The position numbers were made by a program, and so were the translations under genes. From Methanomicrobium antiquum (GTDB lineage Archaea; Halobacteriota; Methanomicrobia; Methanomicrobiales; Methanomicrobiaceae), in NCBI RefSeq assembly GCF_029633915.1, contig NZ_CP091092.1:372001-436000 (forward strand): a stretch of 64,000 bases of DNA. The letters run 5' to 3'. This document shows, piece by piece, positions 9,785-55,839 of the stretch. Position 1 is the stretch's first letter. Each line of letters starts with the position of its first letter. Under the pieces are notes generated by a model, which worked only from the letters and a program-made list of their open reading frames with translations, was not told where the DNA came from and did no database searches.

Positions 9785-9786
9785 AT

Positions 9787-9826: not shown

Positions 9827-9990
9827 ATTCGGCGGCCTGAAGTGAATTTGCAAACGGCAAAAAAATAATCAAAAAAAAGGGGAATATTTCAGACAATGCT
9901 ATTTATCTTCCAGATCATCGTTATAATCACCAAAAAAATTATCCCTGCACATATTGATATGAGAGATTATTAAAAGAAGAAAGAGGAAAA

Positions 9991-10408: not shown

Positions 10409-10448
10409 GTTAATAGATTATTTTGGCGGCGATTATTTACCTATATTG
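10409..10448. repeat. 40-bp direct repeat, copy 2 (NYN gene side)
   Basis: The second copy of the 9787-9826 block, same orientation, one mismatch. It lies upstream of the NYN-domain gene. Together the two copies look like a duplicated hsdM leader or the footprint of an inserted 582-bp segment. Confidence 0.9.
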
Positions 10449-10519
10449 TTATATTCGCTATCGTTCTGTGAAAACGGGACGATAGTTTCTTCTTTTGTGT
10501 TTGTATATTATTTATTTAG

Positions 10520-11053: not shown

Positions 11054-11191
11054 TTAGCTTAATTTTGAGTTGTCAGTTCTGATATTTGATTCAGATATAG
11101 TCAAATTTCAAAACCAGCTGATGATAACAATTAACGACTAAACCCTTTCAGACAATCTTCTTTATTTTCATTCATGGAGAAAATAATACAA

Positions 11192-12127: not shown

Positions 12128-12236
12128 GAGAAAATTTACTTTCACACCCTGCGCAGAGAATTAATAATACCCTAAATGAAAATAGTAAAAATACGGCAGA
12201 TATGATTTCTGCTGATAATATTAAAGGTGAAATAAT

Positions 12237-12758
12237 ATGGAAAAAGCAAAAACATGCCAGAGCTGTGGTATGCCGATGGCAAAGGAAAGCGACTTTGGAA
12301 CTGAAAAAGACGGTTCTAGATCAGAGGATTACTGCACATACTGCTACCAGAATGGTGCATATACAGAACCTGAAATAACAATTGATGAGATGGCGAAAAA
12401 GGGCGGCGCCATTATGTCTCAGATGTTTGAGATACCTTCTGAAAATGCAGTAAACTTCGCAAAGGAGCAACTATTTGTCCTCAAAAGATGGGCCGGACTT
12501 GAAATTCCGTCATGCGAAAGCTGTGGAATGCCGATGAAGGAGGAAAGCGAGTTTGGAACTGAAAATGACGGGTCAAAATCGACAAGATACTGCACATACT
12601 GCTACCAGGAGGGTGAGTTCACAGAGCCGGAACTTACCAAAGAGGAGGCAGTGTCAAAATATGCACCGATGATGGCAGAACACCTGAAAATGCCTCTTGA
12701 TAAGGCAAAAGTGATGGTTGAAAGCTATCTTACAACACTTCCGAGATGGAATAATTAA
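12237..12758 (+). CDS. Double zinc-ribbon protein (two tandem PF12674-like domains)
   Basis: A 173-residue cytosolic protein made of two near-identical halves. Each half has CxSCGMPM..ES.FGTE.DGS.S..YCTYCYQ.G..TEPE (about residues 7-45 and 93-131), so each half has two CxxC pairs that should bind one zinc. Each is followed by a helical tail ending in a K/PRW motif (VLKRWAG, TLPRWNN). This is the putative zinc-ribbon family common in methanogens and anaerobes; its role is unknown. The duplication is internal and old, since the two halves differ at many positions. It lies about 110 bp downstream of the cupin gene with its own AAAGGTGA ribosome-binding site. Confidence 0.8.
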   Translation: MEKAKTCQSCGMPMAKESDFGTEKDGSRSEDYCTYCYQNGAYTEPEITIDEMAKKGGAIMSQMFEIPSENAVNFAKEQLFVLKRWAGLEIPSCESCGMPMKEESEFGTENDGSKSTRYCTYCYQEGEFTEPELTKEEAVSKYAPMMAEHLKMPLDKAKVMVESYLTTLPRWNN

Positions 12759-12843
12759 AACTGTCAGAATTTCTAAATAATTCACAAATTTTTAATAATT
12801 CAGAGATTTATTGATTCGGATAATTTTATTCAGTCAATTATTG

Positions 12844-12916
12844 AAAAAAACGTTCATGAAAAAAAAGTTTTCATGCACTGTTTCATGAAAATCATAATTT
12901 GGTTTTCATGGTAAAT
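12844..12916. repeat. Dispersed TTCATG hairpin repeat, copy 1
   Basis: An intergenic element with AACGTTCATGAA, TTTTCATGCAC and TTTCATGAAA motifs in the same order as the fuller copies at 34966, 56469 and 57892. Its central hairpin is degenerate here. It lies between two genes whose 3' ends face each other. Confidence 0.6.
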
Positions 12917-12951
12917 TAGTTCAGACGGGATTAGTATAAACAATCCGGATT

Positions 12952-14352
12952 TTATTTTTTGTTGAATTTATATTTTACATTCATCTGAATCATATTAAGC
13001 TGTGTTTCGTATCTGGACCAGAGTCTGTCGAAGATAATAAGCTTCTTCTCGGCATTTTTGGATAGAACAGCAACCTGCTTGAATGCCGGATCTCTTAATT
13101 TTTCAGGGTTCTTTTCAACAAATTTGACAATCTGATATAGAGCTGTCCTTATATCAGACATGGATGACTGAATATTCTTCATAAGTGTACTGTTTTTCAG
13201 AAATTCATCATGAATAGCACCTGATTTTTGTCTTGACTCTTCAATTTCGGTAATGTCTCGCATAACAGTTATCATATGAGAAATAATGCCGTCAGTCTCA
13301 AGCGGAATGAAATGGAAGAGCATGTATGTGGTTTCTTTATCATTGCCGTATTTTCTGATGTGCTTAACCTCTTTTCCATTCTTAAAAAGCTCTTCATAAA
13401 TATTTACACTTGCAATTTTTGAAAACTGGGGAATTTCATAGGCAGGTTTTGTAAGCTGAAGTTTGCTGATTGAAAGACGCCTTGCAAATGAAAAGAATTT
13501 CTGGTTGTAATGAGTAATCTCCATTTTATTGCTTATTACAAACACGATGTCATCAAGTGAATTTAAAACCTTGGTAAAAATCACATCGATATCTTTTGAG
13601 GCAAAACTTACCTCTCCTGTTTCCTTTTTAAAAATCAGAATTTGCTCATCGAAATTATCACCATAAGATTTTATGAATCCTGAGAGGACAGATACTTTTT
13701 GTGAATTCCCGTCAGCTTTTTTTAAGAGCACTTTATCCGGCCAGACACAGACTTCATCATCCTCTCTTTCAGATTCATCCTCAGTATCAATTAGAGATAA
13801 AAATTTCCTCCCAATAAGTTTGTTTCTGTTAAAGCCTGTTAAAAACTCCATCTCTTTATTTATTCTTGTGACAGCTCCCCTTTTGTTTATAGTAATTGCC
13901 GCCGCAGGAATTTCCATAAGGCCGGTTTCAGCTGGATCTGTGTTTGCAGAAGTCTTGTTTATACGCGATTTTTCCTCTGCCTTATGCCTGTTTATTGCTA
14001 AATCTATTGATTTTAGTATCTGTTCGTCTGTGAAGGGCTTTAAAACTACAACAGGGTTGTTTAGTTTTTTAACGATCTCCAAAACCTCAAGGTCACTCTC
14101 ACCAATGATGAAAAGGACAGGTATTTTGTAGTTTTCAATGATTTTTGACGCCGCATCAATTATTCCTGCACTTCCTGAGATTCCTATCCGCATTATTACA
14201 AGGTCGGGTTTGTTTGCGCCTGCCTGCTGAATAGTATCAAAGGCGTCAACGCTAAGGCCTGAAATTTCGTAATTATTATTCCTAAGCAGATTTCTGATTT
14301 TAATTGCATTTGATACTTCATCATCGGTAATTAGTATTTTTTCTTTAGCCAT
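12952..14352 (-). CDS. Pseudo-receiver plus PAS-domain sensor protein without kinase domain
   Basis: A 466-residue cytosolic protein starting MAKEKILITDDE. Residues 5-120 form a response-regulator receiver fold: the acidic pair D10-D11 and the Lys of VVVLKPF are present, but the phosphoacceptor Asp is replaced by R55 in PDLVIMRIGISG. Phosphorylation in the normal way is therefore unlikely. Two PAS domains follow (about 150-235, with EFLTGFNRNKLIGRKFL, and 265-385, ending in MITVMRDITEIEES). The last 80 residues are helical without H-box or ATPase motifs. The ATG at 14352 is chosen because a longer frame to 14430 would overlap tmk. A role as a partner or scaffold in signal transduction is inferred. 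Confidence 0.78.
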   Translation of the reverse strand: MAKEKILITDDEVSNAIKIRNLLRNNNYEISGLSVDAFDTIQQAGANKPDLVIMRIGISGSAGIIDAASKIIENYKIPVLFIIGESDLEVLEIVKKLNNPVVVLKPFTDEQILKSIDLAINRHKAEEKSRINKTSANTDPAETGLMEIPAAAITINKRGAVTRINKEMEFLTGFNRNKLIGRKFLSLIDTEDESEREDDEVCVWPDKVLLKKADGNSQKVSVLSGFIKSYGDNFDEQILIFKKETGEVSFASKDIDVIFTKVLNSLDDIVFVISNKMEITHYNQKFFSFARRLSISKLQLTKPAYEIPQFSKIASVNIYEELFKNGKEVKHIRKYGNDKETTYMLFHFIPLETDGIISHMITVMRDITEIEESRQKSGAIHDEFLKNSTLMKNIQSSMSDIRTALYQIVKFVEKNPEKLRDPAFKQVAVLSKNAEKKLIIFDRLWSRYETQLNMIQMNVKYKFNKK

Positions 14353-14392
14353 TGAAAAACAACTCTTTAATAATTTGTCCTGAAATTTGGAT

Positions 14393-14992
14393 TTAATTAG
14401 ATAATTTTTGACGGATGATTTCTGATACAAACTTCAATATCTCATCTTTGTCTTTTGATGCGTCTATAATTACAAAACGCACCGGATCTTTTTCTGATTG
14501 TTCAAGGTAGTTTTTCTGAACATTTTCCAAAACGCTTTTGCATTCAAAGTGTTCACTGTCTGTTCTTTCTGCCTGTATTCGTTTTAGTGATTCATCAACA
14601 GGCAAAACAAGAAGAAAAGTGATGTCCGGAATTATTGTCCAGTCGTTGTGAATGTCAGAAAGCCATTTTTTCGGGTCTTTTAGATGACCTTTTAATGTCT
14701 CTGACTGGTAGGCATATCTCGAATCTGTATATCTGTCAGATATGACTATTTTTTTATCTTTCAATGCAGGCCTGATTACCGTATCCAGATGTGCGGCGTG
14801 GTCTGCGACAAACAAAAGGGCTTCTGCAACCGGATCTATTTTTTCCTTTATTCCGCGTCTGACCTGGGCACCTATCCATGTTGCGCCGGGCTCTCGTGTA
14901 AAAACAGGACTTATGTCACTTAATTCTTCAATAAGACCTTTTATAAGGGTTGACTTTCCGCTTCCGTCAATTCCTTCTATTGTTACCAGCAT
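14393..14992 (-). CDS. tmk: Thymidylate kinase
   Basis: A 199-residue dTMP kinase that makes dTDP for DNA synthesis. The P-loop GIDGSGKST is at residues 7-15, FTREPGAT is the DR(E/P) region that binds dTMP, and ISDRYTDSRYAYQ is the DRY-type motif. The LID region carries AERTDSEHFE. The start overlaps the end of the HisA-like gene by 10 nt, so the two are one transcription unit that probably continues into the PAS protein. Length and motifs are normal. Confidence 0.93.
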   Translation of the reverse strand: MLVTIEGIDGSGKSTLIKGLIEELSDISPVFTREPGATWIGAQVRRGIKEKIDPVAEALLFVADHAAHLDTVIRPALKDKKIVISDRYTDSRYAYQSETLKGHLKDPKKWLSDIHNDWTIIPDITFLLVLPVDESLKRIQAERTDSEHFECKSVLENVQKNYLEQSEKDPVRFVIIDASKDKDEILKFVSEIIRQKLSN

Positions 14993-15657
14993 ACTTCTCC
15001 ATCCTCCAGGATTTCAACAGGAACTTTGCCTTTATGAACTGCTGTTGCAATAATTGCGCCATCATATCCTGCCTCATAAAGTCTTTTTAGATCAGACATA
15101 TCCGAGACGCCGCCGCCGTAGATTAGTGTTTTTGGATAGACTTTTCTAATTTTTTCAATGTCAAGTCCGCCCATCCTGTCTTCAGATCCGACACTTGAGA
15201 GATTCATGACAATTGCTCCTTCAAAATCCCAGTCACTGCAGGCAAGAAAAGATTCAACCGGGGATTTTTTGTCAGGATATGTAAGATTGTCCTTTATTAC
15301 TATGCTGAAATACTCAAAAGGAAAATCCTGCTGGTTTTTTGGGCATGTTTCGGTGCTTATGACATTTTTTATCCAGTCTTCGTGCATTGCATCTTCAGGT
15401 CTTTTTGCACCCCTGTTCAGAATTGCAGATTCTGCAGTTCCCCTGCATGCTAAAATTTCTTTATCGTTATCGCCTGTTCCTTCAATTCTGTCGAGGTCGG
15501 CTAAATAAACATTCTTTGCCTTCATCTCTTTTAGATATTCACAGGGGACTGTTGAACTGGCAATTCCCCAGTCCAGCGGCCGGTAATCATTTCTCAGGCC
15601 TTTATATCCATGGACTACGTTTCCTTTTAGAATATCAACAGCAAGAAAAATTTTCAT
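14983..15657 (-). CDS. HisA/HisF-like TIM-barrel protein
   Basis: A 224-residue phosphate-binding TIM barrel related to HisA: MKIFLAVDILKGNVVHGYKG (strand 1, with the catalytic-position Asp D8), VYLADLDRIEGTGDN (strand 2), VMNLSSVGSEDRMGG and LIYGGGVSDMSDLKRLYEAGYDGAIIATAVHKG (the two half phosphate-binding motifs). Methanogens carry this paralogue besides true HisA. Its reaction is not settled, and here it sits with tmk and divergently to mfnB, not with his genes. A role in cofactor or purine-related metabolism is only suggested by this setting. The gene overlaps tmk by 10 nt. Confidence 0.75.
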   Translation of the reverse strand: MKIFLAVDILKGNVVHGYKGLRNDYRPLDWGIASSTVPCEYLKEMKAKNVYLADLDRIEGTGDNDKEILACRGTAESAILNRGAKRPEDAMHEDWIKNVISTETCPKNQQDFPFEYFSIVIKDNLTYPDKKSPVESFLACSDWDFEGAIVMNLSSVGSEDRMGGLDIEKIRKVYPKTLIYGGGVSDMSDLKRLYEAGYDGAIIATAVHKGKVPVEILEDGEVCW

Positions 15658-16053
15658 AAAATAAACACCGTAATTGTTGTATTATTTTTTCTCTATTATA
15701 GATCTCTTCCTGATAAGTACTAATAATTGCGGATCTGTATCCGTGTTCTTTTTTTCATATTTACTCCAAAATTTGCGCTTTTTTAGTGATATTCTCTAAC
15801 GATAGACAATTATGTAATGATTATCTGTCAAAATGACAACTACTAAAACTGCTTTAATGCCTGTCAGCCGCACATTTTTCTGCGCAGTTTTTTAATTCTT
15901 ACAGACTTTTTTTATCAGACACTATAAAAACAAAGAAAAAAGTGGAGATGTATCTAAATTTGAAATCTGGGTGAAATATGTGGTTTTTTTGTCTTCAGCA
16001 GATTTAGTGTTGATATAATAATCACTAATTATGTGAAATGACAAAAAATAAGT
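15658..16053. promoter_or_regulatory. Divergent promoter region between the HisA-like gene and mfnB
   Basis: An AT-rich gap of 396 bp with no gene. Near mfnB, TTAGTG and CACTAA (about 16001-16025) form an interrupted palindrome around GATATAATAAT, which is a good TATA box about 38 nt before the mfnB ATG. The position suits an operator. Further left I see only A/T runs. Confidence 0.4.
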
Positions 16054-16740
16054 ATGGATTTGTTAGTTAGTCCGGCAAGCGTTGAGGAAGCAAAATCTGC
16101 GCTTTCCGCTGACATAATTGATGTGAAAAAACCCTCTGAAGGCTCTCTTGGAGCAAATTTCCCCTGGGTTATTTCTGAGATAAAAAGCATGACAGAAAAG
16201 CCTGTCAGCGCTGCAATTGGTGATTATAGTTTTCTTCCCGGAAGTGCATCACAGGGTGCTTTTGGCGCGGCATGTGCCGGTGCTGATTTTGTAAAAGTAG
16301 GCCTGATGTTCAAAGGGGATGATAATGCTCTTGAATTCATAAAAGCTGTTACTAAAGCTGTTAAGTGGAAGTTCCCTGAAAAGACAGTTGTTATTGCAAC
16401 CTATGCGGATTATGACAGGGTTGACTCAATCTCTCCTTTTGATATGGCACCGCTTGCACAGAAGGCCGGCGCTGATATTGCAATGATTGATACTGCAGTA
16501 AAGGATGGAAAAGGACTTTTTGACTTTTTAAACGAAGATGAGCTTACTGCATTCACAAACAAAAACCGTGAACTGGGTCTTAAAACCGCGCTTGCAGGTT
16601 CTCTTAAGTTTGACGACCTTGAATTGCTAAAAAAGATAGATCCTGAGATAATTGGTGTCAGAGGGATGGTCTGCGGAGGCGACAGGAGTGCGGTTATAAA
16701 AGAGAGTCTTGTGCAAAAGGCTATGACTCTGGTCAGGTGA
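16054..16740 (+). CDS. mfnB: (5-formylfuran-3-yl)methyl phosphate synthase
   Basis: The enzyme condenses two glyceraldehyde-3-phosphates into the furan precursor of methanofuran, the first C1 carrier of methanogenesis. The 228-residue protein starts MDLLVSPASVEEA and has the hallmark IIDVKKPSEGSLGANFPWVI, whose Lys (K25 or K26) is the Schiff-base residue. FVKVGLMF in the middle and ALAGSLK..DL...DPEIIGVRGMVC near the end are further conserved blocks of the TIM barrel. The next gene, guaB, starts 10 bp downstream, so the two form an operon. This gene is one of the clearest signs that the organism is a methanogen. Confidence 0.92.
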   Translation: MDLLVSPASVEEAKSALSADIIDVKKPSEGSLGANFPWVISEIKSMTEKPVSAAIGDYSFLPGSASQGAFGAACAGADFVKVGLMFKGDDNALEFIKAVTKAVKWKFPEKTVVIATYADYDRVDSISPFDMAPLAQKAGADIAMIDTAVKDGKGLFDFLNEDELTAFTNKNRELGLKTALAGSLKFDDLELLKKIDPEIIGVRGMVCGGDRSAVIKESLVQKAMTLVR

Positions 16741-16749
16741 ATATACTAT

Positions 16750-18213
16750 ATGTATAAAGAAAAACTGGACATGATAACCGGTTACACCTTTGATGATGTT
16801 TTGCTAGTTCCGGCTGCATCGTCCGTTGAGCCGAGTGAGGCCAATGTCTATTCACGTTTTTCAAGGAATATCAGATTATCAATTCCTCTCGTATCTGCCG
16901 CAATGGATACTGTCACAGAGTCTGGAATGGCAATTGCACTTGCACGCGCCGGCAGTATCGGAGTCATCCATAGAAATCTTTCTCCTGAACGCGAAGTTGA
17001 GGAGATAACACTTGTCAAGCAGGCAGGAGACTTTATAGAAAGAGATGTTTTAACAGTAAAATCTGATGCAACCGTTTCTGATGTCGATTATATGATGAAG
17101 GAGAGAAATATTGGCGGACTTCCGGTTATGGATGACGGCAAAATCATCGGAATTGTCTCACGCCGTGATCTCCGTGGTATTGCTCCTTCGCGTTCTTCTG
17201 AAAATATCAGAAATGTAATGACAAAAAGCCCGATTACAGTTGATGATTCAATTAAAATTGAGGATGCGCTTGAGGTTATGTATGCAAATAAGGTCGAGCG
17301 TCTTCCTGTTGTTGATTCTAAAAACAGTCTTATAGGAATCATTACAATGCAGGATCTCCTGGAAAGACAACAGTATCCAAACGCAAATCTGGATAAAAAT
17401 GGCAATCTGATGGTTGCAGCGGCAGTAGGTCCGTTTGACATCAAAAGAGCCCGGATGCTTGATAAGGCAGGATGCAATGCACTTGTTGCAGACTGTGCAC
17501 ACGGGCATAATCTCAATGTTGTAAAATCAGTTAAAAAGATGAAGGAGACTGTCTCCTGCGATGTTATTGCAGGAAATATTGCAACCGGTGAAGCGGCGGC
17601 AGAGCTTTGTGATTTTGTTGACGGAGTAAAGGTTGGAATCGGGCCTGGGTCAATATGCACAACAAGGGTTGTTGCGGGTGTTGGTGTTCCACAGATTACA
17701 GCTATTACATCAGTTGCTGAAGTTGCGTCAAAGATGGATATACCTGTAATTGCAGACGGCGGCATAAGATACAGCGGTGATGTTGCAAAAGCAATTGCCG
17801 CTGGTGCAGACTGTGTTATGATGGGAAGTTTGTTTGCAGGAACAGATGAGGCACCAGGACGTGTAATTGCTATCAAAGGTCGAAGATACAAGCAGTATCG
17901 CGGAATGGGATCACTTGGAGTAATGACAGGAGGTCATTCAAGCGACAGATACTTCCAGAAGGACATTGGGCAGAATAAATATGTTCCTGAGGGAATTGAG
18001 GGTGCAACACCTTATGTCGGATCAGTTTCTGAGGTCATATATCAGCTTGTCGGCGGCCTTAAATCAGCTATGGGCTATACAGGATCTTCAACAATTGCGG
18101 ATATGAAAGAAAAAGCAAAGTTTATCAGAATAACATCTGCAGGACAGGTGGAAAGCCACCCGCATGATATTCTGATAACTGATGAGGCGCCTAATTACAG
18201 GCTGTCCAATTAA
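16750..18213 (+). CDS. guaB: Inosine-5'-monophosphate dehydrogenase
   Basis: A 487-residue enzyme oxidising IMP to XMP with NAD+, the committed step of GMP synthesis. FTFDDVLL-type N-terminus (YTFDDVLLVPAAS), a CBS-domain pair at about 95-210 (VLTVKSDATVSDVDYMM and VMTKSPITVDDSIKIED), the catalytic-Cys loop GPGSICTTRVVAGVGVPQ, the IMP phosphate site ADGGIRYSGDVAKAIAAGAD and the flap YRGMGSLGVM are all intact. The CBS pair is complete, so adenine-nucleotide control is plausible. It follows mfnB by 10 bp. Confidence 0.95.
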   Translation: MYKEKLDMITGYTFDDVLLVPAASSVEPSEANVYSRFSRNIRLSIPLVSAAMDTVTESGMAIALARAGSIGVIHRNLSPEREVEEITLVKQAGDFIERDVLTVKSDATVSDVDYMMKERNIGGLPVMDDGKIIGIVSRRDLRGIAPSRSSENIRNVMTKSPITVDDSIKIEDALEVMYANKVERLPVVDSKNSLIGIITMQDLLERQQYPNANLDKNGNLMVAAAVGPFDIKRARMLDKAGCNALVADCAHGHNLNVVKSVKKMKETVSCDVIAGNIATGEAAAELCDFVDGVKVGIGPGSICTTRVVAGVGVPQITAITSVAEVASKMDIPVIADGGIRYSGDVAKAIAAGADCVMMGSLFAGTDEAPGRVIAIKGRRYKQYRGMGSLGVMTGGHSSDRYFQKDIGQNKYVPEGIEGATPYVGSVSEVIYQLVGGLKSAMGYTGSSTIADMKEKAKFIRITSAGQVESHPHDILITDEAPNYRLSN

Positions 18214-43597: not shown

Positions 43598-45211
43598 TTA
43601 TTGGGGAACCATCTTTTTAAGATCTTCTTCAACCGTGCTGTTCTTTCCAAGGCCGAAATTCTTCACCAGAACGTCAAGAACCGCCGGCGAGACAAATGCC
43701 GGAAGAACAGGTCCGATAGTGATATTTTTGATTCCGAGATTTAAGAGGGCAAGAAGGACAAGAACCGCTTTCTGCTCGTACCATGCGATATTGTATGATA
43801 CCGGAAGCTCGTTTATGTCAACGCCGAATGCTTCCGCAAGTGCTTTTGCGATTACAACAAGCGAGTAGCTGTCATTACACTGGCCTGCATCAAGAACACG
43901 CGGGATTCCGCCGATATCTCCAAGACCTAAGCTGTTGTAGCGGTATTTCGCACAACCAGCCGTTAGTATTACAGTGTCTGCGGGGAGGGCTTTTGCAAAC
44001 TCTGTATAATACTCACGCTCCCTGTGCCTTCCGTCACAGCCGGCCATAACGATGAACCGTCTGATTGCACCGTTTTTGATTGCATCTGTAACAGGGCCTG
44101 CAAGAGCTAAAACAGCGTCATGTGCACAGCCTGTAATCAGGTCGCTTTCGTTTCCGACAGCTTCAGGCGGGCTGCACTTCTTCGCCTGCTCAATTAATGC
44201 CGAGAAATCCTTGTGCCCTTTCTCATCAGCTTTTATGTGCTTTAATCCGGGATATCCCACAACACTTGTTGTATATACGCGGTCTTTGTATGAGTCCTTT
44301 GGCGGAACAATACAGTTTGTCGTTATCAGAACCGGACCGTTGAACGATTCGAACTCTTCTTTCTGGTGCCACCACGAACGTCCGTAGTTTCCGACAAGGT
44401 TTTCAATTCCCTTAAATGCCGGGTAGCCGTGCGCCGGAAGCATCTCTCCGTGAGTATAGACATCAACTCCCGTTCCTTTTGTCTGCTCAAGAAGCATCTT
44501 CAGGTCTAATAGATCATGTCCGGTTATTAGAATTCCCGGGCGATCCCTGACGGTAGTCTTTACAGTTGTAATCTCAGGTTTTCCAAATGTGGTTGTATGT
44601 GCCCTGTCAAGAAGTTCGAGTGTCTTAACCCCTACTCCGCCGCACTCCAAAACAAGTCCGGTCATCTCATCTACGCTCAGATCTTTAAGAGTTGATGCAA
44701 GACCTTTCTGGACGAATGCAGGGATTTCATCATCGGTAAACCCAAGTATTGCCGCATGATGATAGTAAGCGGAGACTCCCTTAAGCCCGTAGACTAAAAG
44801 TTCGCGAAGGGATCTCACATCCTCGTTTTCTGTTAATAAGACTCCGACCAGTTTTGCCTTTTCTTCGACTTCGGATTTGTCTTTTGGCTTCCATGTACAG
44901 GCGTCATGTTCAGAACCGGCAGCTTTTGGTATTTTGTCCCTGATTGCAATAGCCTCACTGATAAGCTGATAGTAGCGGTCTTTATCGAAATTGACATTTG
45001 TAAGGGTCGTAAAAAGCGAGTCCATAATGAATTTTCCCGCATCAGGGTTTCCGGCGCCATTCTCCATTGCCGGGACATTTCTGACCGATATTCCTTTGCA
45101 CAGATATATCAGAAGATCGATTAAATTCGCAGTCTCTTCGTCCTTTCCACAGATACCCTTTTTCGTACATCCTTTTCCGTTTAGCGTTTCTTCGCACTGA
45201 TAACAGAACAT
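43598..45211 (-). CDS. hcp: Hybrid cluster protein / hydroxylamine reductase
   Basis: A 537-residue Hcp. The N-terminal cluster ligands are [23 protein letters not shown] (C3, C6, C15, C21). The hybrid-cluster ligands lie in the C-terminal half: [30 protein letters not shown] (all near residues 360-430), then [14 protein letters not shown]-like [14 protein letters not shown] with the last Cys. The enzyme reduces hydroxylamine or nitric oxide and protects anaerobes against nitrosative stress. It is the first gene of a leftward operon hcp-cupin-CxxC, with GAGGTGA as ribosome-binding site, and is divergent from an HxlR regulator. Confidence 0.95.
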
Positions 45212-45296: not shown

Positions 45297-45656
45297 ATGG
45301 ATCAGTCATGCACAGTATATCAGACCGTCCGCTATCTTACGAAGAAATGGACACTTCTCATCGTTCTTGAACTCTACAAGGGAGAAAATTACACCCGGAG
45401 ATTTTCTGAATTAAAGGAATCAATCCCCGGAATAACATCAAAGCTGCTCTCAGAACGGTTAAAGGAGCTTGAAGAGGAGAATATTATTAAACGGCAGGTT
45501 GACTCAAGGTCATTTCCCGTTAAGACCGAATATTCCTTAACAGAGAGCGGGAATGAGATAATCGGCATAATTTCTGATATAAAAAAATGGGCGCTTAAAT
45601 GGAAGATAGAAAATGTTGCCTGCGGAGATCAGGACTGCCGGGAGTGTATTCTATGA
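45297..45656 (+). CDS. HxlR-family redox-type regulator divergent from hcp
   Basis: A 119-residue winged-helix protein: YLTKKWTLLIVLELYKGENYTRRFSELKESIPGITSKLLSERLKELEEENIIKRQVDSRSFPVKTEYSLTESG, the whole HxlR pattern. Cys at position 5 and C-terminal CGDQDCRECIL could sense oxidation or nitric oxide. It is divergent from hcp and its start codon abuts the palindrome, so it most likely controls hcp and itself. Confidence 0.9.
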   Translation: MDQSCTVYQTVRYLTKKWTLLIVLELYKGENYTRRFSELKESIPGITSKLLSERLKELEEENIIKRQVDSRSFPVKTEYSLTESGNEIIGIISDIKKWALKWKIENVACGDQDCRECIL

Positions 45657-47265: not shown

Positions 47266-47537
47266 CAGCCCCTGCATTCCAAAGGAAAACATCGAATAGT
47301 CTGTAATATTAATAAATTGCACTCTCTTATTTCCTAAATATTTTTCCAAAAAAATAGCAAAAAATAGATATTTCAGTTATTTAGCTGATTTGAAGTGATA
47401 TCAATAAGTGCGGGTGATGTGTCAGGTTATTTAGTTAATCAGTATATGGCGCAAAAGGACATTTGGCAACAATAATCTTTTGTTGCTCTTATCCCGTAAT
47501 CAGTAATATTTTGTCATTTCTCCGTGTAAACGCCGGT
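47266..47537. other. Intergenic region with a 7-bp hairpin
   Basis: GCAACAA-TAATCTT-TTGTTGC at 47466-47486 forms a clean hairpin about 50 bp beyond the stop of the leftward HxlR gene; it may help to end transcription though no T-run follows. No gene seen. Confidence 0.4.
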
Positions 47538-47942
47538 TTAATTACCCTTTGAAGTTTCCCCTGTTTCAGGGGAATTATTTCGCGCCCGTATCGGACAGCC
47601 CGGCATATCCTGCCCACCCCGTTCTGAGACCCAGATCAGCATCGGGATCAGATGCTTCCGCAATTCCCTGCCATCGGGAGTGAGCGAGTACTTCACGGCC
47701 GGCGGCGAAGTTTCCAGAACTTTCTTGCTCACAAGCCCGATTCGTTCAAGACTTTTCAGGGTATCCGAGAGTGGCTTTGGACTGATAGAACCGAGTTCTC
47801 TTTTGAGTTCATTAAATCCCTTCTCACCTTCGTTACCAAGGATAGCAACTATCAAAAGTGCCCATTTCTTCGCTATGATATCGAGGACCCCGGACAGCGG
47901 GCAGAAACAGAATTTATCATTTACAGATAGGGATTTCTTCAT
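47538..47942 (-). CDS. HxlR-family regulator, intact copy
   Basis: A 134-residue winged-helix protein: FCFCPLSGVLDIIAKKWALLIVAILGNEGEKGFNELKRELGSISPKPLSDTLKSLERIGLVSKKVLETSPPAVKYSLTPDGRELRKHLIPMLIWVSERGG. It has CxC near the N-terminus and another Cys near the C-terminus (MPGCPI) that could bind a metal. It is divergent from what used to be the promoter of the metal ATPase, so it probably was, or is, the metal-responsive regulator of that pump. A second, damaged copy lies at 50035. Confidence 0.88.
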   Translation of the reverse strand: MKKSLSVNDKFCFCPLSGVLDIIAKKWALLIVAILGNEGEKGFNELKRELGSISPKPLSDTLKSLERIGLVSKKVLETSPPAVKYSLTPDGRELRKHLIPMLIWVSERGGQDMPGCPIRARNNSPETGETSKGN

Positions 47943-48054
47943 GGATACTACATAACCTGTATATTACTTATTTTTTTATCAGCTATTAAATAAATACTAT
48001 GTATTATGAAATTACCAATAAACAGGGGAGGATAACATGGGTCATGCATGTTCA
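47544..48054. repeat. Duplicated block, copy 1 (HxlR gene, divergent promoter, first codons of the ATPase)
   Basis: 511 bp that match 50004-50482 at nearly every position. The length difference of 32 bp is fully explained by one deletion in copy 2. The block ends six codons into the ATPase reading frame (MGHACS). Confidence 0.92.
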
Positions 48055-48117
48055 AAAATACACCAGTCAGGCCCGGATAACCCAGTTCCCGTAAAGAATA
48101 CCTGGATAATAGCATGA
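48037..48117 (+). CDS. Chimeric 26-residue frame: ATPase start fused ahead of archaeosortase
   Basis: It begins MGHACS, identical to the metal ATPase at 50465 and with the same GGGGAGG ribosome-binding site, then changes to KIHQSGPDNPVPVKNTWIIA. Its stop codon overlaps the archaeosortase start (ATGA). So the duplicated promoter and ribosome-binding site now feed translation into artA. The peptide itself is probably meaningless. Confidence 0.6.
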   Translation: MGHACSKIHQSGPDNPVPVKNTWIIA

Positions 48118-48953
48118 CAGAAATTCTGATCCTCCTGGCATTTATCGCGTTCATCATTTTCCTCGTAGCAAGGCGTGGGAAAAAGTATGCTGCCATCGCC
48201 GGCTGGACGCTCATCGCAGTCAATCTCCTGATCGAAGTTCCCGGGTATATCACGCTGGATAATTATCTGTACCTGGCAATAGCAGTCCTGTCGGTACCGT
48301 TTCTCGCAATCACCATCCGGGAGCTTCTCGCTGACAGTCCGATCCTGATGCAACTGTCAAATGCGGCTGCTGTCGGCACACTCATCTATGTCCCGTTTGC
48401 GTTCATCCCCCTGTTCCGGGATGCACTTATCTCGATCGTCGTCCAGCAGATTGTCTGGCTGCTTCATATCTTTGGCCGGGATGCACAGATTGAAGGATGG
48501 AACATCATCACGCGAAACGGGTTTTCAACTGAGATCATCCTTGCCTGCACCGGGATCACCGCAATTGCAATCCTGCTCGGGGTCGCGGCAGGTTACCGGG
48601 ATCTCTCGATCAGACAGAGGGTGTACGCATTCCTCCTCGTAGTTCCCACCATCTATATCCTCAACCTCCTCCGGGTTGCGGGCGTGATCATTGCATGGTC
48701 GGAACAGTGGTTTGCTTTCATCCCCGACCCGACCGGCACTACCGAGTTCGGGGCAGGTTATGGGAGTTTCTTCTGGGCGCATAACGTCTTTGCTGAGGTC
48801 CTGTCGCTGGGAGTTCTTATCGCTATAACCCTGGCTCTTTTCAGGATTATCCCGGGACTTGCTGATTTCACCCGGGAACTGGTGAATCTTTACCTCAACG
48901 AAGCCCGGGCATTAATCCGATACGGGGGAGAGCAAAGGAGCGGACCTGAATAA
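48114..48953 (+). CDS. artA: Archaeosortase A
   Basis: A 279-residue membrane transpeptidase-like enzyme with about eight transmembrane segments. The catalytic triad is clear: C145 in EIILACTGITA, R187 in NLLRVAG and H223 in SFFWAHNVF. Archaeosortase A cleaves PGF-CTERM tails and attaches the protein to an archaeal lipid at the cell surface. The start overlaps the chimeric leader peptide, and a DUF1624 gene follows 2 bp later. GC content and codon use (many C/G third positions) are unlike the first half of the window, so transfer from a higher-GC relative is likely. Confidence 0.9.
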   Translation: MTEILILLAFIAFIIFLVARRGKKYAAIAGWTLIAVNLLIEVPGYITLDNYLYLAIAVLSVPFLAITIRELLADSPILMQLSNAAAVGTLIYVPFAFIPLFRDALISIVVQQIVWLLHIFGRDAQIEGWNIITRNGFSTEIILACTGITAIAILLGVAAGYRDLSIRQRVYAFLLVVPTIYILNLLRVAGVIIAWSEQWFAFIPDPTGTTEFGAGYGSFFWAHNVFAEVLSLGVLIAITLALFRIIPGLADFTRELVNLYLNEARALIRYGGEQRSGPE

Positions 48954-48955
48954 GA

Positions 48956-49711
48956 ATGTCTGACGGGATACGGGATCAGGGATCGCGGTACCTGGAAATC
49001 GATGGTGTCCGCGGCATCGCGATCCTGATGATGGTGATTTTTCATCTCGTCTTTGATCTCGGGTATTTTGGTATCTTCCCGGTCAGTACCAGCAGCGGGT
49101 TCTGGCGGTATTTCGGACTGTCAACGGCATCGTTATTCCTTTTGATTGTGGGTGTGTCGTTCTCCCTGAGCTATGCCCGGACCGCTGACATGATATCCGG
49201 CTGGCAATTGTACCGAAAGTTCTTGTACCGGGGTGCGGGGATCTTTGCACTCGGTATCCTGGTCACGCTGGGAACCTGGTGGTATCTTGGTGAAGGATAT
49301 GTCATCTTCGGCATCCTGCACCTCATTGGGATCTCGATCATCCTGGCACCATTTTTTTACCGGTTCGGTGCATCCAACCTGCTGACGGGAGGAATCTGTA
49401 TCCTGATCGGACTCGCGATCGGGAATATTACCGGACCTGCCTGGCTGCTCCCGCTCGGGATCCATCCGGCACCATTCTGGTCTGTTGATTATACACCGCT
49501 CTTTCCCTGGTTCGGCGTGGTGTTAATAGGTATGGGCGTGGGTTCCCTCTTGTACCCGGACGGTATGCGAAGGTTTTCTCTACCGTTTTCGTTGCCGGGA
49601 TGGAGTTCGGTACTGGAATTTGCCGGAAAACACTCTCTGGTGATCTACCTGGTGCACCAGCCAATTATTATTCTTCTCCTGCTGGTTTTCACGGGAAAGG
49701 TCCCGGTTTGA
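48956..49711 (+). CDS. DUF1624 (heparan-alpha-glucosaminide N-acetyltransferase-like) membrane protein
   Basis: A 251-residue protein with about seven transmembrane helices. The N-terminal EIDGVRGIAILMMVIFHLVFDLGYFG is the hallmark of DUF1624/HGSNAT-like acyltransferases (IDxxRGxAI..M...H, with the His at the active site), and FGILHLIGISIIL and HSLVIYLVHQP are further family blocks. Such proteins transfer acyl groups to sugars in the membrane. Linked to artA by 2 bp, it may modify the same surface glycoproteins; this is inference. A decayed piece of a related gene lies at 55274. Confidence 0.85.
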   Translation: MSDGIRDQGSRYLEIDGVRGIAILMMVIFHLVFDLGYFGIFPVSTSSGFWRYFGLSTASLFLLIVGVSFSLSYARTADMISGWQLYRKFLYRGAGIFALGILVTLGTWWYLGEGYVIFGILHLIGISIILAPFFYRFGASNLLTGGICILIGLAIGNITGPAWLLPLGIHPAPFWSVDYTPLFPWFGVVLIGMGVGSLLYPDGMRRFSLPFSLPGWSSVLEFAGKHSLVIYLVHQPIIILLLLVFTGKVPV

Positions 49712-49787
49712 CCGGGGGGTCCTGTATTCAAAAAAAAGGAAGCGAAAAAGGAGAGCCAGATACAAGATTGAAACAAACGCGGTATGA

Positions 49788-49989
49788 ATGGCATTTCTGT
49801 GGTGGATACTGGTAATCGTCCCGATGATTGGGATCCTGGAACTGATACTGTATGTCATTCTCCGGGAAAGCAGTGGGAATAAAATCACGAAAGGGAAGAC
49901 TTCGATAGATATCCTGAAAGGAGAGGTATGCAAAAAGGGAGAGCACAAGCGGGCAGTTCCAGATGATAAGTGGAGAGCTGAAAAAGTAA
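49788..49989 (+). pseudogene. Short membrane protein with SHOCT domain, frameshifted
   Basis: MAFLWWILVIVPMIGILELILYV is one transmembrane helix. Then comes SIDILK, after which the family continues ERYAKGEIS... (SHOCT domain). Here an extra G at 49920-49921 shifts the frame. Reading from 49921 in the next frame gives ERYAKRESTSGQFQMISGEL and then KK and a stop at 49987-49989, which is exactly a SHOCT ending. The frame as it stands runs to 50012 with an unrelated tail. So the gene was intact recently. Confidence 0.7.
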
Positions 49990-50003
49990 TTTCTTACTTA
50001 ATA

Positions 50004-50482
50004 TCCCTTTGACGTTTCCCCTGTTTCAGGAGAATTATTTCTCGCCCGTATTGGACAGCCCTGCATATCCTGCCCGCCCCGTTCTGAGACCCAGACCAGC
50101 ATCGGGAGTGAGCGAGTAATTCACGGTCGGCGGCGAGGTTTCCAGAACTTTCTTGCTCACAAGCCCGATTCGTTCAAGATTCTTCAGGGTATCGGAGAGT
50201 GGTTTCGGGCTGATAGAGCCGAGATCTCTTTTGAGTTCATTAAATCCCTTCTCACCTTCGTTACCAAGAATAGCAACTATCAGTAGTGCCCATTTCTTCG
50301 CTATGATATCGAGGATCCCGGACAGCGGGCAGAAACAGATATTATCATTTACAGCTGGAGGTTTCTTCATGGATACTACCTAACTGGTACATTACTTATT
50401 TTTTTATCAGCTATTAAATAAATACTATGTATTATGAAATTACCAATAAACAGGGGAGGATAACATGGGTCATGCATGTTCA
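50004..50482. repeat. Duplicated block, copy 2
   Basis: 479 bp, homologous to 47544-48054. It contains the damaged HxlR copy and the full promoter of the ATPase. A 32-bp deletion between two TCCCGATG octamers (as read on the gene strand) distinguishes it. Confidence 0.92.
50035..50370 (-). pseudogene. HxlR-family regulator, damaged copy
   Basis: A 111-residue frame that matches the gene at 47538 to SLTPD and then goes out of frame (AGLGLRTGRAGYAG) owing to the 32-bp deletion. The last helix of the dimerisation region is lost, but the DNA-binding domain is whole. It is the copy that sits next to the working ATPase gene. If the truncated protein cannot dimerise, regulation must come from the copy at 47538. 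Confidence 0.8.
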
Positions 50483-52372
50483 CATAAAGATGAAGAAGGA
50501 GGTTATGAGGGGAAATGGTACGGTTTTCCTCCGCTCCGTAATGCGCTGATTGCCGGAGTGATTGCCGGAACCGGAATGATACTCGGCCACCTGGGAATTA
50601 TCACGGGTCTGTACGAGAACCTGTTTTTCCTCATCGCTATTCCTATCGGTGCGTATCACTGGGTGAGAGAAGGATTAGAAGACCTGATCCACGAGCACGC
50701 GATCGACATCGAGATGCTGATGATCGCCGCAACGCTTGGGGCAATTATACTCGGGCTCTGGGACGAAGCCGCAACGCTGGTCATCCTGTACGCCGCAGCC
50801 GAAGGCGTGGAGCATATCACGTACGCACGGACACGCTCATCGATTCGGAAACTGCTGGACCTTGCGCCGAAGGAGGCAGTTCGGATCCGAAACGGGACAG
50901 AAGAGGTGGTTTTGGCTGATCAGCTCCAGGTTGGGGACATATTCCTGGTCAAACCCGGCGCCGGCATCCCCACAGATGGCATCATTGTAAAAGGTCGGTC
51001 CAGTATCAATGAGGCGGCTGTCACCGGTGAATCGATACCCGCAGAGAAGCAGGAGGGCATGAAAGTCTTTGCTGCAACCCTGAATGTCGATGGCGCCCTT
51101 GAGGTACGGGCAACCGCGACGTTTAAGGACAATACCCTTATGAAGATGATCCACATGGTCGAGGAGGCGCAGGAGCAGAAGGGAAAGATGCAGACCTTCA
51201 TCGAGAAGTTCGGGCGGAAGTATACCCCGGCGATCCTCTTTGTATCCCTCATTCTTATCGTTGTCCCGCCGTTATTCGGCATACCGTTCAACGAGCTTGC
51301 AATCCGTGGTGTTGTACTCCTTATTGCGGCTGCGCCCTGCGCACTGGTGATGTCCACACCGGTCGCGGTTGCGGCAGGTATCGGATCTGCCGGAAAACGC
51401 GGCATTCTCATCAGGGGCGGCATCCACCTGGAGAACCTTGGGAAGACAAAGGCGGTCGCATTTGACAAAACCGGGACGCTTACGACCGGAACTCCGGCAG
51501 TGACCGATATCATCGCGCTGAATGGAGATGAACCTGAGGTCCTCCGGATCGCATACACGGTCGAGCGCTACTCCGATCACCCGATCGCCTGGGCAATTAT
51601 AAAGCGGGCAGAGACTGAAGGCATCAAAGCGCATGGGGCGGTGGGCGAAAGCGCCCTTCCCGGCCAGGCCGCTACAGCAATCATTGACGGGACGCCATGG
51701 TTTGCCGGAAGACCGGAGTATTTCACCGGTACAGCAATGGATGCAGAAACACAGCGTACAACCGAAAAATTCCGTGCTGAAGGAAAGACAGTAATATTCG
51801 TAGGAACGCAGGAGAACGTCATCGGCATCATTGCCGTACGGGACCAGGTCAGGCCTAATGCAAAGGCCATGATCGATGAACTCCACACTATGGGTGTTGC
51901 AACCGTCATGCTGACCGGCGACAACGGGGTTACGGCAAAAGCAGTAGCAGCGGACCTCGGAATCGACGACATCCGTGCAGACCTGAAACCGGAGGACAAA
52001 ACCGCTGCAATCATCTCTCTTAAAGAGACGTACGGGACGGTCGTCATGATCGGCGACGGCATCAACGATGCTCCGGCCCTTGCCAGAGCCACGGTCGGTA
52101 TGGCAATGGGGACTATAGGCACCGATGCGGCAATCGAGGCGGCCGATGTGGCACTCATGGCTGACGACCTTTCCAAAGTTCCGGAGGCCATCGCATTCGG
52201 TCAAAAAGCCCTGTCAGTATCAAACCAGAACATCGTCTTCTCGGTTGCCGTGCTCGCCATCCTTATCCCTGGTGCCCTGCTCGGGGTTCTCGGGGTGACC
52301 CTTGCGGTGATATTCCACGAGGCGTCTGAACTGCTCGCGGTAGGCAACGGCCTCCGGGTTGCGAAGCGGTAA
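50465..52372 (+). CDS. Heavy-metal-translocating P1B-type ATPase
   Basis: A 635-residue metal exporter. The short N-terminus MGHACSHKDEEGG is Cys/His-rich but lacks a CxxC heavy-metal domain. Six or so transmembrane helices, actuator TGES (AAVTGESIPAEK), metal motif AAPCALVMSTPVAVA, phosphorylation site DKTGTLT, SDHPIAWAI (the P1B-specific HP) and hinge MIGDGINDAPALA are intact. The usual CPC is APC here, so metal choice is uncertain (Zn/Cd/Co-type by general likeness). It has a strong GGGGAGG ribosome-binding site. Rich in G+C. Divergent from the damaged HxlR copy. Confidence 0.92.
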   Translation: MGHACSHKDEEGGYEGKWYGFPPLRNALIAGVIAGTGMILGHLGIITGLYENLFFLIAIPIGAYHWVREGLEDLIHEHAIDIEMLMIAATLGAIILGLWDEAATLVILYAAAEGVEHITYARTRSSIRKLLDLAPKEAVRIRNGTEEVVLADQLQVGDIFLVKPGAGIPTDGIIVKGRSSINEAAVTGESIPAEKQEGMKVFAATLNVDGALEVRATATFKDNTLMKMIHMVEEAQEQKGKMQTFIEKFGRKYTPAILFVSLILIVVPPLFGIPFNELAIRGVVLLIAAAPCALVMSTPVAVAAGIGSAGKRGILIRGGIHLENLGKTKAVAFDKTGTLTTGTPAVTDIIALNGDEPEVLRIAYTVERYSDHPIAWAIIKRAETEGIKAHGAVGESALPGQAATAIIDGTPWFAGRPEYFTGTAMDAETQRTTEKFRAEGKTVIFVGTQENVIGIIAVRDQVRPNAKAMIDELHTMGVATVMLTGDNGVTAKAVAADLGIDDIRADLKPEDKTAAIISLKETYGTVVMIGDGINDAPALARATVGMAMGTIGTDAAIEAADVALMADDLSKVPEAIAFGQKALSVSNQNIVFSVAVLAILIPGALLGVLGVTLAVIFHEASELLAVGNGLRVAKR

Positions 52373-52463
52373 TATTTACCACCCGCAATTTTCATTTTTT
52401 TATTATATATGCATTCAGCAAAAAAAATGCCTGCCGGCAAAAATCCCGGATAACAAAGACTGC

Positions 52464-54128
52464 TTACATTCCGCAGCAAAATTTTGGGAAATAATATTTT
52501 TCATAATCCCTGCCCATAAGCCTTAAGATCTTCCACAACTCCTCTTCCATGTTTGTAATTACGATTTTAGTCTGGCCTTCAACACTGAACCTAAGTTCAC
52601 GAACTCTCCTAAATCCAAAGAACACCCACTTCAGCGTCGGCCTTTCTGTCTGCTTATTAGTCTGGCTGGTCACAGTCTCTTTGGAATCCTGCAGTTTCTT
52701 TCTCAATTCAAACTCCACGAGGGAATATATGAACAGACAAAGTACCATAATCATTGCCAGAGCCTGAATTCTGGACTCCTTTTTTAAAAATACCTCTCCA
52801 ATTCTAAATGACTTATCCTTAAGGAATCTAAAACCCCGCTCAACCTTGTATTGATTCTTGTATTCACTGAGCAATGTATCAGGATCCATTTTATCATCAT
52901 TTGTTGCCAGAATGAACCTTCCTAACTTACTCTTCTCCGTTTTCACAAACTCTGGATCGTGTTCAATTTCAGCCCGAATTTTATAAACCTGAAATAAACA
53001 CTCATCTTTTTTTGGTCGTCCTTTCTTCCCGTCATTCCGCTTTGAGACTGGACAGACTTCAATTGAAGAATATCTGTATCTTCTCCTCTCCGAGATCCAT
53101 TTTTCAGCCTCCTGAAATGCATCTGCCTCACAAGCAAATTCACGTGCTTTCATCTTTTTAAGAGATTTCGTTTCATCTAAAATATTTTTCTGAAGCATTA
53201 TCTCATATTTTTTAAGCTTCTGCTTTTGCATTTCATTTGAGCTGTACAGAACCCATTTTTGTTTTATACCTGCATAATCTGAGATCTTTTCTGCATATGA
53301 ATATCTATTATCTTCACATTCCTGTAAAGTTTCATCCAAGCTCAGGAATTCTTTCGCCTCTCCAATCGAGTTTGTAACTCTGCTTATCCAGAAAGTGTGA
53401 TCGCCCATCTCCTGAAGATTTGCCTTAGTGTAAAAGGCATTATCGGCAATATGGTAGACTTTATGAGATGAAATAAGATTTTTCCTCAGTTTATCTATCA
53501 TCTCAATAATTGCTTTTTTATCTGATTCATTACCTGAAAATGTCTGGAGAAAGACTGGAACTCCCCGATTATCTGAAGCCATTCCGAGTACAAATCGTTT
53601 GAGATCGTTTCTGCCGTCTTTAGGATGACCAAATGTTATCTCCATATTCCGTGAATCGAAATTACTATCATAGTCCCCGTAAACGCTAAAATTTGTAGTA
53701 TCCACATGAATACAGTGGATTCCATAATCATCCTTCAGCAGTCTTTTTATCACAATTTGATTGAATAATTCAGTAGGTCCATATTCATAGATTCTATCGA
53801 GAGTCCGTCCCAGTGTATCATCATTGAAATGCCCGGGTTCAATTCCTTTACCAAAGAAACGCTCTGTTGGAACGTCTTTGAAGAACACAGGATGAAGATA
53901 AAGCCGCCTGTCAATGAATGCCAGACCGTTAATAACAAGTGATTTTACAATCTGACCATGAGTGACAATATGTGATTTTGTTTTAGGAATAAGTTCGTCG
54001 ATGAGCTCACCGATTTCAAGCTTGTCATAAGCACCGGCAACAAGACCATAATGAGCAAGTGATGTGTTTGAACCCTCTATGAATCCATCTATTGAAGGCA
54101 TATTATACGTTATTTCCTCAAAGTACAA
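52464..54128 (-). mobile_element. IS1634-type insertion sequence (IS4-like DDE transposase)
   Basis: One 554-residue transposase gene with the layout of the IS1634 family: N-terminal DUF4277-like part (HYGLVAGAYDKLEIGELIDELIP), DDE catalytic core with first Asp in HCIHVDTTNFSVYGDYD, second Asp near VYHIADNAFYTKANL, and the YREK-like region in YKNQYKVERGFRFLKD. The gene looks complete. I could not find terminal inverted repeats or target duplications by eye, so the ends are taken as the gene ends; the true element is a little longer on both sides. It splits the GC-rich island between the ATPase and the DUF63 gene and is itself AT-rich. Confidence 0.88.
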
Positions 54129-54274
54129 AGATATTGCGGTTGAAAATTAAAAATATGGTTCGAAATGGTGCGGATGGTGAGGACTGTATATCATGAAAAA
54201 TAACAATTGTGAATTGTTCAGGGGCCTAATCTTACCCCCTGCCGGTTCCTGCCGGCAGACCAGGAGCTTAAACC

Positions 54275-55120
54275 ATGATTCGCGAATTCATTATGAAATA
54301 TTACATCGATCCCATCCGGTACGGACAGCCGTACACTATAGTGGACACTCTTACCTATGCAATAATACTCATCATTTCGGTGTACCTCATCTATCGGTGG
54401 CTGAACACTACAGGAATTGCGGTGGATAGGAAATTTATCCTTGCTACCATCCCGTTCATTGTCCTCGGGGGACTTCTGCGGGTTGTGGAGGACACCGGTT
54501 TTATCACATCCGATATTCATTTCCTCCTGATCACGCCGCTGATTTATTTTGTCATATTCTTCTTCACCATCGCGGCACTCCTGCTGTCGCGAACCCTTGA
54601 GCGTGCCGGATTAATCTCATCCTATCATATAGGGTATGCCGGGATCGGAACACTCGCCTGCACGATATCCGCAGCATTTCTGATATGGTGGGGGCTTACT
54701 TATTCGCAGGTCATGGTGAGCGTCATACTCATTATCATGAGTTTGGCCATTGTCACCTCTGCCGCCGTCTGGGGATTCATGCGGTACGTGCTCAAATGGG
54801 AATATGTGAGCGATCCGATCTACTGCGTGCTCATCTTCGGGCAGCTTTTGGATGCAAGCGCCACGAGCTATGGGATCGACCTCCACTCCATGACATACAC
54901 CGAAGCGCACGTTGTCGGGGGTGCCCTGGTCGCATGGACTGGAACGGCATTCTCGATGTTCCTCTTAAAACTGGCAGTCCTGTTCCCTGCGATTTACATT
55001 CTCCAGCAATACCGCAAAGAGGGCAACCCAGTCTTATGGCACCTGATCCTGCTTGCCATGATAATCGTAGGATTTGCACCGGGGGTGCGGAACATGGTCA
55101 GGATGGTACTCTTCGTATAA
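54275..55120 (+). CDS. DUF63-family membrane protein
   Basis: A 281-residue protein with about eight transmembrane segments, of the archaeal DUF63 family: MIREFIMKYYIDPIRYGQPYTIVDTLTYAII, KFILATIPFIVLGGLLRVVEDTG, LIFGQLLDASATSYGIDLH. Widely present in euryarchaea, function unknown. GC-rich like artA. Upstream (54201-54217) AACAATT-GTG-AATTGTT is a 7-bp inverted repeat that may be an operator or belong to the end of the insertion sequence region. Confidence 0.85.
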   Translation: MIREFIMKYYIDPIRYGQPYTIVDTLTYAIILIISVYLIYRWLNTTGIAVDRKFILATIPFIVLGGLLRVVEDTGFITSDIHFLLITPLIYFVIFFFTIAALLLSRTLERAGLISSYHIGYAGIGTLACTISAAFLIWWGLTYSQVMVSVILIIMSLAIVTSAAVWGFMRYVLKWEYVSDPIYCVLIFGQLLDASATSYGIDLHSMTYTEAHVVGGALVAWTGTAFSMFLLKLAVLFPAIYILQQYRKEGNPVLWHLILLAMIIVGFAPGVRNMVRMVLFV

Positions 55121-55230
55121 CCCCGTGAGGTGCAAAATATATGGCAGAACAGAGAAATTCGCTGGCAGGAGCAGTAATCGCATCCCTTAGCATGCCCCTC
55201 CATGCTGCATTGCCGTCTCGGATGCTTCGG

Positions 55231-55278
55231 GGGAAGATGGGGCATCTTCCCTTCATCCGGCGTTTTTTTACACGCCGG
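55231..55278 (+). other. Two strong tandem hairpins
   Basis: GGGAAGATG-GGG-CATCTTCCC (55231-55251, 9-bp perfect stem) and CCGGCGT/ACGCCGG around a T-rich loop (55257-55278). They lie 110 bp after DUF63 and could end its transcript or form part of a small RNA. Confidence 0.55.
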
Positions 55279-55350
55279 AAGCACTCCCTGTGATCTGCCT
55301 GGTAGACCATCACCCGGTTATTATTATTCTGCGGGTATTCACGGATTATG
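55274..55350 (+). pseudogene. Decayed fragment of a DUF1624-type acyltransferase
   Basis: About 75 bp matching 49622-49700, the C-terminal helix of the DUF1624 gene, with several indels: CACTCCCTGTGATCTGCCTGG against CACTCTCTGGTGATCTACCT, and TTATTATTATTCTGCGGG against ATTATTATTCTTCTCCTG. Conceptually this was HSLVIxLVxxPxIIIL. A second acyltransferase gene must once have stood here. Confidence 0.7.
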
Positions 55351-55497
55351 GCAACAGCCCGATCGGTTAAGCATCAATTAAAAAAAAATCCGCCATGCGA
55401 TGTATTCCGCAGATACGGCAGATAATACCGGCAAATGACCAGATTCCCCGGTTTTTCGGGGAGTAATTATTTTCTCCCTCTAAATCTGTACCTGTAT
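55351..55497. other. Gap before the YnfA-like gene
   Basis: No gene. It contains an A-rich run (55378-55388). A 50-codon frame from 55141 into the hairpin region is random-looking and is not annotated. Confidence 0.35.
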
Positions 55498-55839
55498 ATG
55501 GTTTTTCAGTCAATTATTCTCTTCATCTTCGCCGCCCTGTGTGAGATCGGCGGCGGATATGGCATATGGCTCTGGCTAAGGGAGGGAAAGGGTATTGAGT
55601 ATGCTGTTCTCGGGGCGGTCATTTTGGTCCTGTACGGGATCATCCCAACCCTGCAAACGGAAAATTTCGGGAGAGTGTATGCCGCCTATGGGGGATTTTT
55701 CATTGTCCTTGCCCTGCTCTGGGGCTGGCAAATCGATCATGTGGTGCCGGACAGGTTTGATATCATCGGCGCAACTGTCGCACTGGCAGGTGTATTTATT
55801 ATTATGTACTGGCCAAGAGCAGCAACGATTGCACCATAA
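55498..55839 (+). CDS. YnfA/UPF0060-family membrane protein
   Basis: A 113-residue four-helix protein: MVFQSIILFIFAALCEIGGGYGIWLWLREGKG, YGIIPTLQTENFGRVYAAYGGFFIVLALLWGW, DIIGATVALAGVFIIMYWPR. This is the YnfA (UPF0060) family, related to small multidrug-resistance exporters. The ATG at 55498 gives the normal length; a frame to 55435 adds 21 residues that the family lacks. The fitting neighbours (metal ATPase, ynfA) suggest a resistance island. Confidence 0.88.
   Translation: MVFQSIILFIFAALCEIGGGYGIWLWLREGKGIEYAVLGAVILVLYGIIPTLQTENFGRVYAAYGGFFIVLALLWGWQIDHVVPDRFDIIGATVALAGVFIIMYWPRAATIAP

Follow-up and report, generated by a model that had tools for sequence, protein, structure and literature searches.

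An archaeosortase A gene behind a duplicated metal-pump promoter in a rebuilt, probably horizontally acquired efflux island of Methanomicrobium antiquum

HxlR-family regulators of the YodB, HypR, RrpA and RrpB type lie divergent from the gene that they control, and the capture of a promoter through duplication or illegitimate recombination is a general phenomenon. The locus described here lies in a 64,000-nucleotide stretch of the M. antiquum genome, which is called the window below. Its regulators share with the YodB type a winged-helix HxlR domain, an N-terminal cysteine motif and a conserved footprint in the divergent promoter, but they come from an archaeal clade that is linked to pumps and carries CFCP and GCP cysteines; the RrpB and RrpA models gave 54 and 44 bits, far under their cut-offs of 175 and 185. 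As in promoter capture, a promoter and first codons are fused to a new downstream gene; however, the captured gene, artA, is itself a member of this island in relatives, and another genome (G103) has a parallel swap. Archaeosortase A is the PGF-CTERM processing enzyme of Haloferax volcanii (PMC11980579). The window copy resembles it in a TIGR04125 score far over the cut-off, in the conserved Cys, Arg and His, and in the presence of at least one clear PGF-CTERM protein in the genome, and differs from it in that it is auxiliary, came by transfer, is one of four in its genome and lies behind a metal-pump promoter. The nearest islands are those of Methanoregulaceae genomes (G081, Methanoregula PtaB.Bin085 and Methanoregula STF2_46), which have the same genes and the same ArtA clade, the first two also having the window's type of HxlR and operator; their artA stands at the far end behind the pump, whereas that of the window stands in front with its own copy of the promoter.

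We consider it likely that the window contains a metal-efflux island that arrived by horizontal transfer and was rebuilt in its present host, with artA-DUF1624 and the pump under joint control of the left HxlR (HxlR_L). The island acquired would originally have had the order HxlR | P1B-ATPase - DUF63 - DsbD-like - artA - DUF1624 - YnfA. Related Methanoregulaceae islands run HxlR | P1B-ATPase - DUF63 - thioredoxin/membrane protein - artA - DUF1624. G081, from another family of the same order, has one colinear locus of a SHOCT gene, HxlR on the minus strand, ATPase, DUF63, DsbD-like, artA, DUF1624, (thioredoxin) and YnfA. PtaB.Bin085 (G106, L110/L152) has pump, DUF63, artA and DsbD-like, followed by YnfA, and STF2_46 (L168) has the same four genes followed by DUF1624. 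Since artA thus follows a pump of this kind, with both genes on one strand, in G081 and in both Methanoregula genomes, comparison of gene orders indicates that artA behind the pump is the common arrangement and that of the window is derived. The operon reading in relatives reflects strand and spacing only, with a gap of 185 bp after the ATPase in G081. At E<=1e-150, the pump was found in 10 of 199 genomes of the order, the window's own included, and in none of the other genomes of its family in this set. No empty insertion site was found in G022, of the same genus, where the right NifU/NifS flank is syntenic and the left flank is not, and the left flank in the window (47266-47537) gave no match to the G081 island.

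The preliminary description had reported copied blocks near 47544-48054 and 50004-50482, each with an HxlR gene, the divergent promoter and the first six ATPase codons. Local alignment bore out the duplication: 47538-47639 plus 47672-48054 aligned with 49998-50099 plus 50100-50482 at ~92% identity, and the right copy lacks 32 bp that are present at 47640-47671 of the left one. The promoter and the six pump codons (ATG GGT CAT GCA TGT TCA) were indeed present in both copies, but an intact regulator gene was found in the left one only. HxlR_L (47538-47942, minus strand, 134 aa; PF01638 73.9 bits, profile 1-87 of 91; ortholog alignment) passes the PF01638 gathering score over nearly the full domain, and has the conserved CFCP and a C-terminal GCP. 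HxlR_R (49998-50370, minus strand; alignment, PF01638 and ortholog alignment) is broken, because the 32-bp deletion shifts its reading frame; its 111-aa product covers the domain at 1-67 of 91 only and is without the GCP motif that most orthologs keep. It is probably inactive, and the left HxlR is likely to be the only working regulator. The two genes cluster together against that of G081, with 41 G081-distinct, 20 left-specific and 12 right-specific sites. Another HxlR gene of the window (45297-45656) is divergent from a prismane/hybrid-cluster protein gene (43598-45211); nine further genomes of the family have such an adjoining pair, with an HxlR-like gene, and a hybrid-cluster protein gene also occurs near the pump-artA island of STF2_46 (L168 8744-10345), as it does near the island in the window.

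The divergent promoter/operator occupies 47943-48036 in the left copy and 50371-50464 in the right one, as assigned by their mutual alignment and by a footprint conserved among orthologs. The left promoter has a palindrome, AATAC-TAT-GTATT, at 47993-48005, and a candidate TATA element, ATTAAATA, at 47985. The 22-mer core AATACTATGTATTATGAAATTA has exact matches in the genome at these two promoters only. Seven orthologous intergenic regions have a strong footprint in common, ACTATTAAACGGATACTATCTATCAGGAAATTA, from which both window copies deviate alike (AATAAATACTATGTATTATGAAATTA), with changes found in no ortholog. Since the two copies share derived changes that are lacking in every relative, the duplication is, by this criterion, local: the left promoter derives from the pump locus of this genome and did not come with artA. 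All seven orthologs have a strong twin repeat of the operator, spaced 49 bp apart, but in both window copies it is no better than chance, so the operator call relies on the footprint and not on the repeat. The last 92 bp of the repeated block, which contain promoter, operator and the six pump codons, show zero differences between left and right. Within the continuous 383-bp part, 8.6% of sites differ outside these 92 bp and 0 within them (P=0.0003); this identity could stem from shared function or from gene conversion.

In the left copy, the six codons run into a 26-codon leader frame (48037-48117, plus strand) in which they are fused to the artA upstream region, and the TGA of this frame overlaps the artA ATG at 48114 (ATGA), in agreement with the preliminary description. 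BLAST against G081 placed the junction within the frame, at ~48054-48059. The ATGA overlap is native to artA and is present in G081 too, so that an open 26-codon frame is, on this comparison, not improbable by chance. An artA promoter of its own within 48055-48113 had been named as evidence that would speak against promoter capture; no strong one was found in this interval, and the best TATA-like match (7/8) is at 48051, at the junction, where roughly one in four random 70-bp stretches scores as high or higher. Before artA itself, the native site, CAGGAT in G081, reads CTGGAT in the window, a change that fits translational coupling but does not prove it. Transcription of the left copy would start ~25 bp downstream of the ATTAAATA element at 47985, the pump's ribosome-binding site, GGGGAGG, would start the leader, and artA would be translated by coupling to it.

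The archaeosortase gene so positioned (48114-48953, plus strand) encodes 279 aa, which matched TIGR04125 at 234 bits (cut-off 75, profile 3-269 of 271), and Cys145 (ACTG), Arg187 (LLR) and His223 (WAHN) are invariant with G081 and G106. Its partner, a DUF1624/HGSNAT_cat membrane protein of 251 aa (48956-49711, plus strand; PF07786 243 bits), is 96% identical to that of G081. In the ArtA tree, the window copy pairs with G081 (100/100) inside the Methanoregulaceae ArtA, far from the host's own ArtA. The preliminary description had suggested a search for a second artA, and three more were found in the genome: one that is orthologous to the ArtA usual in the family, and two in tandem. The window copy, one of four, is auxiliary, and core anchoring of surface proteins need not depend on it. 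The tandem pair, of divergent archaeosortases, is at G000:C1:2281183-2282902, and similar pairs occur in G007, G019 and G022. Sister ArtA genes of the window clade adjoin a PCYCGC-motif protein gene (L148 685-1739) and a DUF6803 protein gene (L147 9446-9946). One PGF-CTERM protein of the genome scored above the cut-off and three were weak matches, and no dedicated ArtA substrate gene was seen in the island.

Under the reading that we prefer, intact HxlR_L would bind the identical operators of both copies, and artA-DUF1624 and the pump would answer the same signal together. This signal could be metal or thiol stress, given the CFCP and GCP cysteines and the P1B ATPase, and a response of the promoter to metals is what we infer from the genes that it normally drives. 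The net effect would be that artA is kept under pump control, and the stressed cell would have an auxiliary archaeosortase for trimming surface proteins of the PGF-CTERM type and anchoring them to lipid. Alternatively, artA-DUF1624 may have come to lie behind the promoter by chance and be misregulated or silent, with no function. An IS1634 insertion, a pseudogenised HxlR_R and several deletions mark the region as unstable, as such an accident would have it, but both artA and DUF1624 have open frames and a low dN to G081 (0.039 and 0.019), the left regulator is intact, the two copies, otherwise 8.6% apart, have the same 92-bp promoter, and other genomes also link artA to this pump; we regard this explanation as unlikely.

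To the right, the six codons start the real ATPase, as had been proposed: a P1B-type heavy-metal pump of 635 aa (50465-52372, plus strand; TIGR01525 563 bits, cut-off 346). In all the orthologs examined, as here, APC stands in place of the usual CPC, the metal-site motif that helps to assign the metal, so that the motif points to no particular metal. To the left of HxlR_R, 49763-49997 (plus strand; tblastn and joint sequence) is the 3' part of a SHOCT-domain gene, truncated at the recombination joint; this gene adjoins HxlR in G081. Downstream of the ATPase, an IS1634-family insertion sequence (52462-54179, minus strand; NF033559 375 bits) separates it from DUF63. Since a second copy at G000:C1:352769-354486 is 100% identical, the insertion is recent, and it could separate DUF63 from the promoter of the pump. 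A composite transposon was rejected, as no IS lies at the artA joints and the only IS1634 element is inside the island, between ATPase and DUF63. The DUF63 membrane protein gene (54275-55120, plus strand; PF01889 331 bits), ancestrally second in the pump operon, is 88% identical to that of G081. Downstream of it, a remnant of the 5' end of a thioredoxin/DsbD-like gene (55134-55261, plus strand; alignment score 102, shuffle maximum 37) is joined to what is left, in decayed form, of the original DUF1624 3' end (55274-55388, plus strand; score 77, shuffle maximum 35). A YnfA/UPF0060 gene (55498-55839, plus strand; PF02694 144 bits; tblastn) ends the island as in G081 and G106. By their position and content, the two remnants mark the deletion of the original artA-DUF1624; the whole DsbD-like-artA-DUF1624 part was evidently lost, with its end fragments left behind.

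The island matched the G081 locus L105 piecewise: 47537-48058 with 9422-9942 (84%), 48059-49775 with 14086-15801 (94%), 49763-52461 with 9193-11932 (85%), 54180-55261 with 11927-13014 (84%) and 55498-55815 with 16652-16969. The first three pieces meet at sharp joints and map to non-adjacent parts of that one locus. They also differ in divergence. The dS to G081 was 0.11 for artA and 0.13 for DUF1624, whereas HxlR, ATPase and DUF63 gave 0.50, 0.42 and 0.42, and third positions were the same as in G081 at 479/524 sites of artA-DUF1624 (91%) versus 778/1050 of the flanking genes (74%; P=2.6e-17). The 64-bp noncoding tail after DUF1624 is 94% identical to G081, and the ATPase-DUF63 spacer 72%. Because artA-DUF1624 is so much closer to G081 than its flanking genes are, the pair most likely came from a G081-like source after the rest of the island had been acquired, and it was joined to the local duplicate of HxlR, promoter and six pump codons. 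We suggest that duplication, artA arrival and deletion occurred in sequence.

These divergence levels also bear on whether one transfer would suffice. The whole island could have come once and been duplicated in tandem, the left copy then losing ATPase-DUF63-DsbD-like and the right one DsbD-like-artA-DUF1624, with artA-DUF1624 as the original pair. One tandem duplication and two deletions would fit all the junctions, and the DUF1624-end remnant does lie in the right copy where a deletion would be expected. However, identity to G081 is ~94% for artA-DUF1624 with its noncoding tail and 84-88% for HxlR, ATPase and DUF63. A single arrival would give two such levels only if foreign DNA had later converted artA-DUF1624, and we regard this account as unlikely. 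That the duplicated block is a false join of two distant loci, an assembly error that the preliminary description had listed as fatal to its proposal, is highly improbable, since the copies differ at ~8% of sites and by the 32-bp indel, both block junctions are unique, and a search of the 2,438,126-bp (2.44-Mb) genome, assembled as one contig with 0.63% contamination, found exactly two copies, both in the window.

The proposal that recombination placed artA-DUF1624 under the pump promoter thus stands with regard to the precise junctions, the local promoter copies, the separate origin of artA-DUF1624 and the remnants of an older arrangement; the link itself is not new, as G081, G106 and STF2_46 all have artA behind the pump. 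Since this order already exists in related species, the rearrangement probably preserved, and did not invent, the link between metal stress and surface-protein processing.

The footprint, allowing <=3 mismatches, occurred in 14 of 232 genomes of the order, and a window-type HxlR lies beside it in 11 of the 14, with a partial match (55%) in one of these, G186. It usually drives a P1B pump, and in G186 it precedes another P-type ATPase. In G103 (L258 510-1941), this HxlR and operator, with the first codons of the pump (MGHSCS.NCTD), precede a CDF cation exporter gene, and homology to the G085 pump locus ends after ~12 codons. From these junctions, the promoter was handed to a new gene more than once, the G103 swap being an independent event, and the HxlR-promoter unit resembles a module that can be swapped. 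Apart from artA, which has long been a neighbour of the pump, the recipients are ion exporters.

Operon rearrangement with promoter duplication is known, and what is unexpected is the recipient, artA. To our knowledge, the regulation of archaeosortases is largely undescribed. Here, one ArtA clade is repeatedly tied to a metal-efflux island, and in one genome it stands behind a fresh copy of the pump operator. A wider view, which we offer as possible rather than probable, is that in Methanomicrobiales a mobile response to metal/thiol stress regularly includes, under selection, the sorting of surface proteins by an auxiliary archaeosortase, that HxlR and promoter serve as a swappable control cassette, and that the operon here lost artA, which then came back under the same operator. 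The finding raises the question of whether the processing and anchoring of surface proteins are altered under metal or thiol stress, and it provides a worked example of an archaeal operon that was split while its genes kept the same predicted control.
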